Positions 7,249-11,239 of a DNA stretch of 39,921 bases are shown here, one piece after another. The DNA lies in NCBI GenBank assembly GCA_003561215.1, contig PWXG01000241.1, positions 1-39,921 on the forward strand. Reading direction: 5' to 3'. Each line of letters starts with the position of its first letter. Within the stretch, counting starts at the first letter, position 1. Position numbers and translations under genes: made by a program. Source of the stretch: Thermotogales bacterium (GTDB lineage Bacteria > Thermotogota > Thermotogae > Petrotogales > Kosmotogaceae). The notes beneath the pieces were generated by a model. It was not told the DNA's origin. It saw only the letters and a program-made list of their open reading frames with translations, and ran no database searches.

Positions 7249-8454
7249 TTACTGCTGCCCTACTCCCAGAAGGATTACGGCATCGTAGTAGCTCACGTAT
7301 CGCCTTCTCTTGGCCATAGCTTCAATTACGCCAAGGTATTCCGGAATACCCTCAAATTCTCGCAAATCGAAGATAATTGGAACATGTACTGGATGAGCCC
7401 TTGAGAAATAGTCATAGACTTCGTCATACTTGTCGTTGATAAAGATATAGGTTTTTCTCATTTCAATACCCTGGACATCGATCTTATGGGGAAACACGCT
7501 GATTCTCAAGCCGGTTCGGTGAAGCCATTGATTACGCACCAGCTCGGCAAAGCTGTCAGGTGTTCCTGAATATCCGTCTATGTTACTCAGTACAATAATT
7601 TCAGGCGGCCTATCCAGTCGGCCGATCTCGGCTGGCATGGGAGTTTGTGCAACAAAGCGGATATGCCCGTCATCGTCGATAACATGCGGCATTTCCATGA
7701 ACTGTACCTGCCTGATCCCCGTTATGAAACTCAGGGCAAATCTTGCTGCAGGTAACAGCTCGAACTCTACCTCAGTATTCTCCATCAGAAACTCAACGAC
7801 ATCCAGCACTTTGGCAGGACCCGCCTGCAGGACTGACGACATGATCAGTTCAATTACCTCTCGCTGTCTTCTGATTCTTCCGAGATCACCCGCATCATCG
7901 TATCTGAACCTGACATATTCGAGAAGCTTTTCGCCCTCAAGATAGTGTGTGCCTGGCTCAAAGTGGATATGAAGACCCTGCTGATAGTCATCGTAGTGCA
8001 TGGGCGAGCTTATGAAGATCCTCAGTGGTCCGATCACCTCGGTTATGCGGGTGACGGTTTCGAAATCGAGCACCACGTAACCGGCAACAGTCTTGCCGCT
8101 TATTCTGTCGGTGGCACTTATCAGGGCGTCGATTCCATACTGGTTCATCAGGGCGTTGATCCTGTGAGTCCTTCCCTCGTGTGAAACAAGCGTATCCCTG
8201 GGGATATTCATTACCTTGAGCGAGTTGTCGACTCCCAGGTAGGCAACAGCTATAAAGTCTGTCCTGCCTCCTGAAGATGATCTTCCTCCAGAGTCGACCC
8301 CGATAATAAGGTACGCGGAATCCTTGTCTGCAGTGGTGAGAAAACTGTTGTAAGTAACAGAAACAGCTTCCATAGTAAGAGCAAACACTGCGAAGATTGA
8401 TCCAAGCAAACAGAGCGAGATTGCCACTATTGAAAGACTTCTTACCTTTGCCAT
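7249..8454 (-). CDS. LytR-CpsA-Psr (LCP) family cell-envelope glycopolymer ligase
   Basis: LCP enzymes transfer undecaprenyl-diphosphate-linked glycopolymers to the cell wall or other acceptors outside the membrane. The 401-residue protein has an N-terminal membrane anchor (about 7-30) and an LCP catalytic domain (about 46-205) with the polyprenyl-phosphate-binding GGRTDF (Arg64, Asp66), NIPRDT (83-88) and the Arg-rich RFRYDDAGDLGRIRRQR region (about 182-198). A C-terminal LytR_C-like domain (about 283-400) follows. It overlaps the upstream LCP-like gene by 13 nt. In a Thermotogota cell, with thin peptidoglycan and an outer toga, the polymer attached is unknown. The overlapping neighbour looks like an inactive relative. 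Confidence 0.9.
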   Translation of the reverse strand: MAKVRSLSIVAISLCLLGSIFAVFALTMEAVSVTYNSFLTTADKDSAYLIIGVDSGGRSSSGGRTDFIAVAYLGVDNSLKVMNIPRDTLVSHEGRTHRINALMNQYGIDALISATDRISGKTVAGYVVLDFETVTRITEVIGPLRIFISSPMHYDDYQQGLHIHFEPGTHYLEGEKLLEYVRFRYDDAGDLGRIRRQREVIELIMSSVLQAGPAKVLDVVEFLMENTEVEFELLPAARFALSFITGIRQVQFMEMPHVIDDDGHIRFVAQTPMPAEIGRLDRPPEIIVLSNIDGYSGTPDSFAELVRNQWLHRTGLRISVFPHKIDVQGIEMRKTYIFINDKYDEVYDYFSRAHPVHVPIIFDLREFEGIPEYLGVIEAMAKRRRYVSYYDAVILLGVGQQ

Positions 8455-9164
8455 TCCTTGATCAGTTGCCGAAGACTATCAACCGACTCAGCCCTGAGAA
8501 AATGCCTGGGCTCGGGTTCGATCGCGGTGCCTGTGACAATCCTAACCGGATAGCTCGTCATGCTCTCCATTACGAAGACCGTCCTGCGCCCTTCTCCGAT
8601 CCGTTTCAGAAACGCTGCAAATCCCGCACGCGAAATCGATGATTCCCGATCATGTTCTTCTATCGTTTCCACGAAGTCTCTCAGTCCCCAGTAATCGAGA
8701 AAACCAAGGCCCCTCACGGCCAGTCCTTCCAGGAAATCCTCGATATTCGAAGCCCGGATTTTCAACTTATCACTCAGTGCACTCAGCGTGCGATCATCCA
8801 TTCTCCAGTGAAATGCATGATCTGTTTCCAGACTTAACCATTGTTGGACGAGCGCATAGTCGTCAGAAACTGATTCTCCCTGTAAAGGCCTTTCAAAACC
8901 TTCTACGTACCCTGTAGACGGGATCCTTACCGTCAGGATTCTCCCGGCGTCGTTTGCTCTCACAAGTACATAGTAATTATCATCACCTGCAGTCCAGTAG
9001 ATGAAGTAATCATTGTTTGAAGCGTGCATCTCAGAACTGTTTACGATCCCTGATGCCACCAAGTAGACATATCCCCCAAAACCAATTACCAGAGCGACAA
9101 TAACGAGGAGGACCAGGAACCCTCTCTTACTCTTCCTGTACCTTTTGGGCTTAATCGGCGTCAC
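8442..9164 (-). CDS. Membrane-anchored protein with degenerate LCP-like domain
   Basis: A 240-residue protein with a basic N-terminus (KPKRYRKSKR), one membrane helix (about 15-37) and an extracytoplasmic remainder. No database name comes to mind. Residues about 63-87 align without gaps to residues 66-90 of the adjacent LCP ligase: NYYVLVRANDAGRILTVRIP against DFIAVAYLGVDNSLKVMNIP. The catalytic positions are lost, with Arg-Thr-Asp becoming Asp-Asp-Asn and IPRDT becoming IPSTG. The following DHAFHWRMDDRTLSALSDKL resembles the LCP YVVLDFETVTRITEVI stretch. I infer an LCP pseudoenzyme. The gene overlaps yqeK upstream (14 nt) and the LCP gene downstream (13 nt), so the two LCP products are probably made together. 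Confidence 0.75.
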   Translation of the reverse strand: MTPIKPKRYRKSKRGFLVLLVIVALVIGFGGYVYLVASGIVNSSEMHASNNDYFIYWTAGDDNYYVLVRANDAGRILTVRIPSTGYVEGFERPLQGESVSDDYALVQQWLSLETDHAFHWRMDDRTLSALSDKLKIRASNIEDFLEGLAVRGLGFLDYWGLRDFVETIEEHDRESSISRAGFAAFLKRIGEGRRTVFVMESMTSYPVRIVTGTAIEPEPRHFLRAESVDSLRQLIKEWQR

Positions 9165-9756
9165 TCAGATCCCTCCTCAAATAGTTATTCCAACATAACA
9201 CTATCTCACTCTGAAGCGGTCGGTTTTCTCTAAGAGACCAGAGCATCTTAGATCTTAACACGTCCAGTACAGTTTTCTTCTTGTCCACAAAGGCTTTTAG
9301 CCTTATCCTGGAAGCGGCTTCAAATGGTCTTCCTTCCTCTCCCATGTCAGCAATCAGAAGGAGCTCACCGAGTTCTCCCATTTCTGTCGAGCCCGTTACA
9401 TGCCAGTGTATTGCTTTTCTGACTTCATCGTCGATGTCGTAGCAGAAGACAAGGTAATTCGCTGCAACTTTCCCGTGAAGCAGCGTGGGATAAGTCTCTT
9501 CTGTCTCATTCACGTCGATCCCGTAGTGTCGTGCCATTGCCAGGAGTCTGCTCCCCGAAAGATCCCTGAACATGTCATGACCCCATGAAAGGAGGCGAAT
9601 AGTCTCATCAGGTACCTCGGTTCTCGGAACCAGCTTCCTCGCTAAGCTCTCGACTCCTAGCATATGCTCTATCCGTGCGGGTGTGCACAGAGTATGACAA
9701 ATATCTTTTACTCGGTCAGCGACGGACTGTATATGTAACTCGCACATCCTCGACAT
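9151..9756 (-). CDS. yqeK: YqeK-type HD-domain Ap4A hydrolase
   Basis: YqeK proteins are HD-domain phosphohydrolases that split diadenosine tetraphosphate symmetrically to two ADP. Metal ligands in order, numbered from this start, are His31 in ARIEHMLGV, His60-Asp61 in WGHDMFRDL, His94 in TLLHGKVAA, His119 in HWHVTGS and Asp137 in IADMGEEGR. This order, including the LLHG and WHVTG motifs, is diagnostic for YqeK rather than generic HD proteins. The start is uncertain. The open frame extends to a TTG at 9771, and ATGs at 9756 and 9747 are both plausible; GGTGGAG lies just before 9756. In many bacteria yqeK follows nadD, but here it sits among envelope genes. It overlaps its upstream neighbour by about 41 nt. 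Confidence 0.88.
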   Translation of the reverse strand: MSRMCELHIQSVADRVKDICHTLCTPARIEHMLGVESLARKLVPRTEVPDETIRLLSWGHDMFRDLSGSRLLAMARHYGIDVNETEETYPTLLHGKVAANYLVFCYDIDDEVRKAIHWHVTGSTEMGELGELLLIADMGEEGRPFEAASRIRLKAFVDKKKTVLDVLRSKMLWSLRENRPLQSEIVLCWNNYLRRDLSDAD

Positions 9757-10945
9757 CTTCTCCACCGACAATCACGTTTAGCGTAAGGCGGTCTGGGATA
9801 TCTGAAGGAGCTTCATAGGGATACTCCTTGCCCATGGCGTGGATCATGACATCCTGAGCACCTCTAGGCAGACTATCGTCGATAATCACTTCATGCGAAT
9901 CATCGGAGAGGTTTTTAATCCAGTAGTGAACAGAGTACTCGTAGGCACTGGGATCAGTGGACTCGAGAATGGTAGTCTTCCTCCCCTGCAGCTCGATTGA
10001 CTTGGCCACACCTGAGAGTATTACCGAGTCGCCCTTGACAAGATTATCGATCGAGGTAAACCCTGAAAGAAAACCTTTATCCCAGATCTCGACTGAGCCG
10101 GGTGCAAGATCCACTGGCAGCTCGTCTATTAGAATATCTATGTCCAAGCCAGAATATGTAGAGTAAACGGAGCTACCCCTAAGCACGTAACGCTTCTCGG
10201 CATCGACGTATCTCGATACATAGGCGAGTATGTTTGTGCCTTCGGTCAGTCGGGGCTCAATTCTATAGACCCTCATATCAGTGGTAACAACGTCGGGGAC
10301 GCTCTCCAAATCCGCAAGAACAAGGGACCTGGTTACTGCTCTACCCATCCCGAGATTGGCGGATACGAGCATGATTTCCCTATCTTCGGGAGAAAAGCTG
10401 AGATTCACCACAATGTTACCCGTTACGTGAAGCTGGTCATCTATCCACCTGAATGCGTACCTGGTCATCCATGTCGCTCCATCGACCCGATAGGTGTAAC
10501 TGACCTCGTCGGTGAATGGCTTCGGCATCTCAACAATCAACAACGCGTTGCTCCTGAAGGTCTCGTTCATAAAGACAGGCTGGCCTCGTGGCGCGTAGAA
10601 AAGATTACCCTCACTGTCCCGAAGCACCGGGGTAGGATCAATAAGCAGCATCCTTTCTGATCTGCCATCTTCGAAATTCCAGATGATCTCTTTACCCACA
10701 TTTCTGTCGTACAGGGACTTCAGATCGTCCTCAGGAAGATATCTTGTTTTGGTGCCTTCAGGCACACCGGATATAATGATCGAACCGGGCTCAATCCATG
10801 CCCCCCTGGGCAATTCTATCGAGAAAGAACTAGACGCAGGACTTTTGGTTCCCAAGACGTAGCCAAATCCCTGATATACGAGCAATATCTCTGAAAAACC
10901 AACGATTCCAAGCAATAAGAAAACCGCGATTAATAGTCGTTTCAT
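9716..10945 (-). CDS. Exported beta-rich protein resembling DUF4139 proteins
   Basis: A 409-residue protein with a clear Sec signal peptide (about 1-19, no lipobox cysteine). The rest is beta-rich and mostly acidic, so it is probably periplasmic (between cell membrane and toga). The layout recalls DUF4139-type proteins: an N-terminal part comparing values (LPRGAWIEPGSIIISGVPEGT), then TYRVDGATWMTRYAFRWID with a long beta-sandwich. The C-terminal end has VHYWIKNLSDDSHEVIIDDSLPRGA, reading like an Ig-type fold. No catalytic residues are apparent. It lies between a DUF503 gene and yqeK, upstream of the LCP pair, which supports an envelope role. Family similarity is by eye only. Confidence 0.7.
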   Translation of the reverse strand: MKRLLIAVFLLLGIVGFSEILLVYQGFGYVLGTKSPASSSFSIELPRGAWIEPGSIIISGVPEGTKTRYLPEDDLKSLYDRNVGKEIIWNFEDGRSERMLLIDPTPVLRDSEGNLFYAPRGQPVFMNETFRSNALLIVEMPKPFTDEVSYTYRVDGATWMTRYAFRWIDDQLHVTGNIVVNLSFSPEDREIMLVSANLGMGRAVTRSLVLADLESVPDVVTTDMRVYRIEPRLTEGTNILAYVSRYVDAEKRYVLRGSSVYSTYSGLDIDILIDELPVDLAPGSVEIWDKGFLSGFTSIDNLVKGDSVILSGVAKSIELQGRKTTILESTDPSAYEYSVHYWIKNLSDDSHEVIIDDSLPRGAQDVMIHAMGKEYPYEAPSDIPDRLTLNVIVGGEDVEDVRVTYTVRR

Positions 10946-10954
10946 GCCATCACC

Positions 10955-11239
10955 TCACCAGGTTTCTTTTTCCGTGTTCACTATTTCTAGCCCGTTATTC
11001 ATGGCTACATCACGTTCTAGTGATTCGAATATAGCGTCCATCTGACCGGAACCAAGAGTGACGATCGTTGCTGTCATCTCGACCCAGTTCTTCGAGTCGT
11101 GCAAACCCGACTCGATCACTGAGATATTGTAGTCTTTTCTGAGCCTGTTCAAGATGTGCTTGATCGTGCTTCTCTTCATCTTCAAGGATGATATCATGTG
11201 CAGTTTCGCGGTTATTGTCAGGCGTCCAAAATGCATCAT
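10955..11239 (-). CDS. DUF503 (YlxP-like) small protein
   Basis: A 94-residue protein with the DUF503 pattern: an N-terminal beta strand (GRLTITAKLHMIS), then SLKMKRSTIKHILNRLRKDYNISVIESG, and VEMTATIVTLGSGQMDAIFESLERDV. In Gram-positive bacteria the homologue YlxP is encoded beside infB and rbfA and is thought to act in ribosome-linked processes; its biochemical role is not settled. The gene starts at the ATG directly after the stop codon of the GH13 gene (TGAATGATG), so translation is probably coupled. A second ATG one codon later is equally possible. Confidence 0.82.
   Translation of the reverse strand: MMHFGRLTITAKLHMISSLKMKRSTIKHILNRLRKDYNISVIESGLHDSKNWVEMTATIVTLGSGQMDAIFESLERDVAMNNGLEIVNTEKETW

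Follow-up and report, generated by a model that had tools for sequence, protein, structure and literature searches.

Enzymes of the LytR-CpsA-Psr (LCP) type fix sugar polymers to the cell wall and, to our knowledge, are regarded as transferases that work on their own. In Cps2A, residues D234 and D246 bind Mg2+, R267, R362 and R374 bind pyrophosphate, and D371 and Q378 are stabilising, and the LcpA protein of C. glutamicum forms dimers or tetramers (PMC7831098). VirR, a non-catalytic protein related to LCP enzymes, binds canonical LCP ligases and has been proposed to act as a scaffold (PMC11832169). A 2008 paper catalogues the LCP proteins of Thermotogae (PMC2632651), and the words 'inactive' and 'degenerate' do not occur in it. 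We found no description of an LCP pseudoenzyme in the open-licence literature.

Here we analyse a locus from a Thermotogales bacterium of the family Kosmotogaceae, for which the original prediction was of an LCP ligase paired with an apparently inactive LCP-like protein. What is new is a degenerate family of the LCP superfamily that occurs in a conserved pair with an active enzyme; the superfamily itself is known.

The gene row and its LCP ligase

The window (the whole stretch of DNA that we analysed, 39,921 nucleotides of contig PWXG01000241.1) contains a row of overlapping or closely spaced genes in the order DUF503, a gene of unknown function, yqeK, the small gene and LCP (Table 1). The two last-named genes are where the original prediction had placed them and overlap as it stated; both are on the minus strand, and translational coupling between them is plausible. 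The single-pass anchoring predicted for both proteins is seen in their structural models, each of which has one N-terminal helix of membrane-spanning length (residues 13-41 and 2-40). Because the N-termini of both proteins are basic, an N-in/C-out topology is likely. The yqeK-like gene lies upstream of the small gene, overlapping it by 14 nt, and is a conserved neighbour in most relatives. DUF503 is conserved upstream of yqeK. The gene between DUF503 and yqeK has counterparts at the equivalent position in loci L055, L058, L070, L092 and L111; its place is kept across several Thermotogota families and also, judged by eye, in family f7 (see below), and its product has a weak likeness to MuiA (TIGR02231, E = 0.1).

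Table 1. Features of the window, and full-length relatives of the LCP ligase at the yqeK locus of family f7.
Feature	Position	Strand	Details
LCP glycopolymer transferase, active-type	7249..8454	(-)	401 aa, ATG at 8454
Small protein, LCP fold, apparently catalytically degenerate	8442..9164	(-)	240 aa, GTG at 9164
Overlap of small gene 3' end and LCP gene 5' end	8442..8454	(-)	13 nt
yqeK-like HD-domain hydrolase gene	9151..9771	(-)	NF005519 E = 4.6e-15; TIGR00488 E = 8.5e-13, under the TIGR00488 cut-off
Conserved protein, function unknown	9716..10945	(-)	409 aa; without Pfam match; 56-nt overlap with yqeK
DUF503 protein	10955..11239	(-)	PF04456 E = 2e-18; in most families the conserved row starts with it
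Degenerate full-length LCPs of f7	L195:2593-3693, L196:3031-4074, L197:3283-4359, L198-L204		yqeK locus, 10/10 genomes

The ligase is certainly an LCP protein, by sequence (PF03816, E = 7.7e-29; TIGR00350, E = 6.1e-25) and by structure: its AlphaFold2 model matched 33 LCP structures in a Foldseek search of the PDB, with E-values from 3e-16 to 3e-10. It consists of one transmembrane helix, an LCP domain at approximately residues 45-260 (Pfam match 64-208), and a C-terminal domain at approximately residues 285-401 that has no Pfam match. This C-terminal domain is conserved throughout the phylum and may be a diverged LytR_C-like domain or a new one; in the degenerate LCPs of f7 it has been preserved better than the catalytic core. 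In an alignment of 40 Thermotogota LCPs (alignment A4), 11 active-site residues are invariant in all 40 sequences (D54, R64, D66, R86, D87, N100, R182, R184, D190, R193 and Q197), and the window ligase has every one of them. Mapping by motif, we take D54 and D66 to be the equivalents of Cps2A D234 and D246, and R86, R182 and R193 those of R267, R362 and R374; by the same mapping, the equivalents of D371 and Q378 are also among the invariant residues.

Fold and active-site positions of the small protein

The small protein has no match in Pfam or NCBIfam, does not match PF03816 or TIGR00350 even at E ≤ 10, and does not hit the window's LCP ligase in a BLASTP search. Similarly, PF03816 is absent among the families listed for the 63 members of the small-protein family (alignment A3), and an hmmsearch of PDB sequences with the profile of the small family did not pick up any LCP protein. 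The relationship is visible only through comparison of folds or of profiles. The ungapped alignment of 25 residues (63-87 against 66-90 of the ligase) on which the original prediction drew does not count as evidence on its own, with 3 of 25 residues identical and a BLOSUM62 score of 6, when the best 25-mers from shuffled sequences score 21-37. Its register is nevertheless right, as the phylum-wide profile-profile alignments pair the same strand (P82 of the small protein with P85 of the LCP ligase).

An AlphaFold2 model of the small protein, built with 16 relatives, has a pLDDT of 88.5 and a pTM of 0.82. When it was compared by Foldseek to 350,542 PDB chains, there were 13 matches at E ≤ 0.001 and all of them are LCP proteins (E = 2.7e-6 to 5.4e-5, probability 1.00, query TM-score 0.47-0.54); the next match, with E = 5.4e-3, is unrelated. 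The matches include 3nxh (YvhJ/TagV), 6uf3 (TagV), 3nro, 3owq, 3qfi and the Cps2A entries 2xxq, 3tel, 3tfl and 3tep, and Lmo1026, Lin1025 and EF0465 are also among the proteins represented. A library of viral structures gave no match. Element by element, its secondary structure follows the same order as that of the LCP model, minus LCP strands 88-98, the four-strand acceptor-side insertion (residues 144-172) and the C-terminal domain.

Profile-profile comparison gave a concordant result. With the phylum-wide alignments, HHalign matched A3 to A4 over 164 columns with E = 7.5e-6 and a probability of 84%; when the window sequence was used to define the columns the values were 1.8e-4 and 48.6%. 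In a comparison of phylum-level alignments that gave E = 1.1e-4, a probability of 57% and a score of 38.8, none of 300 column-shuffled LCP profiles reached this score (maximum 22.2) and a reversed profile scored 16.8. The HHalign probability shifts with the alignment, from 48.6-84% at full length to 3-9% after trimming of the transmembrane part (E = 0.0038 and 0.013), which counts against the reading that we propose below. Phylum-level depth is required, since family-level alignments (16 against 17 sequences) gave an unconvincing probability of 4.8%. The soluble part of the small protein aligns with the LCP core and has no similarity to the LCP C-terminal domain (P = 0.078, probability 0.7). 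From the structural and profile comparisons, which the original prediction had proposed as its own checks, the small protein is very probably a degenerate version of the LCP fold. Neither of the outcomes named beforehand as refuting it, a fold unlike LCP or an HMM-HMM comparison that lacks an LCP match, was observed.

The active-site changes that the original prediction described are present: RTD (residues 64-66 of the ligase) corresponds to DDN (61-63) in the small protein, and IPRDT to IPSTG. They extend through the family. The position equivalent to D66 is occupied by E in 17 small proteins, K in 7, D in 7, N in 5, and other residues elsewhere; that of R86 by D (12), N (9), K (8) or Q (7); that of R182 by S, A or K; that of R193 by K (19), R (9) or F (9), and also S; and that of Q197 by Y, W or L. 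Mostly only two active-site positions are kept, the equivalents of R184 (R151, in 51/63 proteins) and D190 (D157, in 54/63). The small family thus does not have the metal-binding aspartates and pyrophosphate-binding arginines of LCP enzymes. Because the active-site residues are lost family-wide, the description of the protein as apparently inactive is supported, and on the pattern of its residues the family is probably one of pseudoenzymes.

Distribution, gene order and origin

We surveyed 103 Thermotogota genomes for LCP genes (by PF03816) and small genes (by the A3 profile), together with 287 genomes outside the phylum. LCP was found in 89 of the 103 genomes and the small gene in 90. The co-occurrence that the original prediction had proposed to check is strong: 88 of the 89 LCP-positive genomes have the small gene, and in the only exception (G087) the contig breaks off within yqeK, before the place expected for the small gene. 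Two draft genomes (G086 and G096) have the small gene without a detected LCP. In the 287 genomes outside Thermotogota there was no real match to the small gene. Four of the five profile matches there cover the transmembrane region only, and were rejected. Apparent second copies of the small gene in genomes of family f2 (L208-L213) were rejected too, as they belong to a protein with a transmembrane segment, a coiled coil and a MotE-like C-terminal part that matches only in the transmembrane part; transmembrane regions can thus create false members of the family.

Five genomes of one genus (G066-G070, locus L128) have, as their second or third LCP, one of another type (PF03816, E = 1e-41 to 1e-43), and these extra LCPs were probably acquired. 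According to the 2008 catalogue, Fervidobacterium nodosum has two LCPs, and one of these clusters with Firmicutes (PMC2632651).

The small gene lies next to LCP in 47 genomes, which belong to seven families; in another 41, from three families (f8-f10), the two are unlinked. In the window's own family, 16 of the 17 genomes have a whole small gene beside LCP, and in the seventeenth the small gene is a fragment cut by the end of a contig. In f8-f10 it is LCP that has moved away, and the small gene remains behind yqeK at the loci that we read.

One family, f7 (10 genomes from four genera), has neither an LCP detectable by PF03816 nor a small gene, and keeps yqeK in 10/10 genomes. We rejected the explanation that it has lost LCP altogether, because the gene directly after yqeK codes for a degenerate LCP (Table 1). 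This protein of 338-367 residues has no Pfam match above the cut-off, and matches the LCP family profile with E-values between 5e-31 and 1e-35 and in HHalign with E = 4.8e-38 over its full length (5.2e-18 for the N-terminal domain alone). RTD, IPRD and the KIN motif are missing from it, as are the acceptor insertion and the entire RFRxDxxGDLGRIxRQ segment, so that no catalytic motif is left in any of the 10 genomes. Judging from these losses, the ligase itself appears in f7 to have turned independently into a pseudoenzyme that PF03816 misses.

Outside Thermotogota, the LCP gene follows yqeK directly with nothing between them at eight loci, including L178 and L181 from Cloacimonadota, L182 from Halanaerobiaceae and L177 from UBP17 (the others are L151, L153, L157 and L160), and at these loci, from several unrelated phyla, yqeK overlaps the LCP gene. 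The pair joins a cytoplasmic nucleotide hydrolase with an extracytoplasmic ligase. The extra gene of Thermotogota occupies exactly the gap between yqeK and LCP. As the small gene fills this gap and its product has an LCP fold, the simplest origin for it would be a tandem duplication followed by decay, although divergence between the sequences is too great to build a tree. The duplication of the LCP gene would most likely have taken place in the ancestor of Thermotogota, at a yqeK-LCP locus that was already old.

A proposed non-catalytic partner and its relation to known systems

The best reading of the small protein is as a partner or regulator of the neighbouring LCP ligase, and we put the chances of this at about even. 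We hold the fuller proposal, of a membrane-anchored extracytoplasmic LCP pseudoenzyme that is the dedicated non-catalytic partner of the active LCP, to be evenly balanced too. The small protein has the core of the fold (transmembrane helix, beta sheet and flanking helices) but no longer the aspartates that bind metal, the arginines that bind pyrophosphate, the acceptor-side insertion or the C-terminal domain. It would pair with LCP in the membrane, on the outer face, where the step that it helps might be to position, stabilise or gate the ligase; alternatively, it might use the pocket that it still has to hold lipid-linked glycopolymer. VirR offers a precedent for such a partner, and the dimers or tetramers of LcpA point in the same direction. 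As to the original prediction of a pseudoenzyme coupled to an active ligase in a regulatory or scaffolding arrangement, the degenerate fold and the co-occurrence are borne out, and the arrangement itself is what we propose here. The absence of the small protein from the one family with a dead LCP fits a partner that is needed only by an active LCP; f7, in which the full-length LCP is dead and the partner absent, can serve as a natural control. It would also fit if the dead LCP of f7 had taken over the role of the small protein.

The relocation of LCP in the 41 genomes of f8-f10, with the small gene staying behind yqeK, speaks against a partnership with LCP, as gene linkage by itself cannot identify LCP as the partner. 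The two drafts that have a small gene and no detected LCP also count against it. The loss in f7 and the relocation of LCP may moreover have been one event each, which would leave few independent changes behind the association. More tentatively still, and with a probability that we place somewhat under one half, there may be a two-subunit LCP system throughout the phylum, in which active LCP depends on a dedicated, catalytically dead subunit of LCP fold that originated through tandem duplication at the ancestral yqeK-LCP locus, and that was dropped in f7 where the ligase became a pseudoenzyme.

The small protein could instead be a stand-alone binder of lipid or polymer, in which the hydrophobic LCP pocket is retained and takes up undecaprenyl phosphate or glycopolymer linked to undecaprenyl, as a sensor, carrier or reservoir without touching LCP. 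The part of the fold that is kept, the sheet and helices, is the one that forms the pocket, and in 41 genomes the small gene persists although LCP lies elsewhere. We nevertheless consider this unlikely, because the absence of the small protein where LCP is catalytically dead, and its presence in 88/89 LCP-positive genomes, tie it to LCP activity and not to lipid handling in general.

It is quite improbable that the partner is YqeK, or the operon, and that the link to LCP is a legacy of gene order. The adjacency of yqeK and the small gene does survive in f8-f10 after the move of LCP, but f7 keeps yqeK in all its genomes without a small gene. Conversely, yqeK is elsewhere in nine f2 genomes (a Petrotogaceae-type family, that of Marinitoga and Petrotoga) and three f6 genomes, and there the small gene has stayed with LCP. 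YqeK is a cytoplasmic hydrolase, whereas the small protein is probably extracytoplasmic. In a mirror-tree analysis of 12 genomes, in which the distances are not independent, the partial correlation was r = 0.61 between the small protein and LCP and r = 0.12 between the small protein and YqeK.

Conservation in the small family has moved to a C-terminal motif, R220-x-Y222, with R220 present in 59/63 proteins and Y222 in 60/63; along with P206 (62/63), D157 and R151 these are its most conserved positions. They might mark a non-canonical enzyme in which the LCP site has been replaced by a new one, for example R220-x-Y222 with R151 and D157, that carries out a related or a different reaction. This is very unlikely, since the 63 sequences lack both a conserved pair of acidic residues for Mg2+ and a cluster of arginines, since none of their columns is invariant, and since P206 aligns with P256 of the LCP ligase and is thus structural.

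Finally, there is only a slim chance that the small protein is no relative of LCP and acquired a similar alpha/beta fold through convergence, because in spite of the nil pairwise similarity and the lack of a listed Pfam LCP match for any of the 63 members, the structures matched among all the PDB chains are LCPs alone, the profile-profile alignment (E = 7.5e-6) is in the same register, and the profile of the small family has further matches to the degenerate LCPs of f7 (E = 2.6e-5) and, in its soluble domain, to one protein outside the phylum (L191, E = 9.3e-4) that is a bona fide LCP (LCP profile, E = 3e-21).

Under the preferred reading of the small protein as a partner of LCP, these conserved dead paralogues, kept next to a lone LCP, would constitute the first family of LCP pseudoenzymes in the literature that we searched. 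That nearly every LCP-bearing Thermotogota genome has a cut-down, apparently dead relative of the enzyme, usually adjoining it, suggests a non-catalytic partner in wall assembly that has not been described. Thermotogota, most of whose genomes have one LCP and a single putative partner, offer a clean system in which to ask if LCP ligases depend on partner subunits, and one that bears on which glycopolymer an LCP attaches in a phylum with two membranes.

Compared to the LCP transferases (PF03816; TagT/TagU/TagV, Cps2A and LcpA), the small protein has in common the N-terminal transmembrane anchor, the LCP alpha/beta core and the order of its elements, and keeps equivalents of R184, D190 and P256. 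It differs in its shorter core and in being without the metal aspartates, the pyrophosphate arginines, the acceptor-side insertion and a Pfam match. The degenerate LCPs of f7 (L195-L204) are, like it, LCP homologs at the yqeK locus that have lost the active site, but they keep the C-terminal domain, are the only LCP-like proteins detected in their genomes and have no active LCP beside them. Regulatory pseudoenzymes such as the CspC pseudoprotease (PMC6636752) are also dead relatives of enzymes kept as regulators; since fold and pathway are different, this is an analogy only. The small protein is not a VirR-like solo LytR_C protein, as it has no Pfam match and aligns with the LCP core. It does share with VirR and Cei, the solo LytR_C proteins of Mycobacterium tuberculosis, a single-pass anchor and a relationship to LCP proteins, and it is predicted to be non-catalytic as they are (PMC11832169). 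VirR consists of a C-terminal LytR_C domain without an LCP domain, and the small protein appears to be the reverse split, an LCP fold without an active site and without the C-terminal domain.
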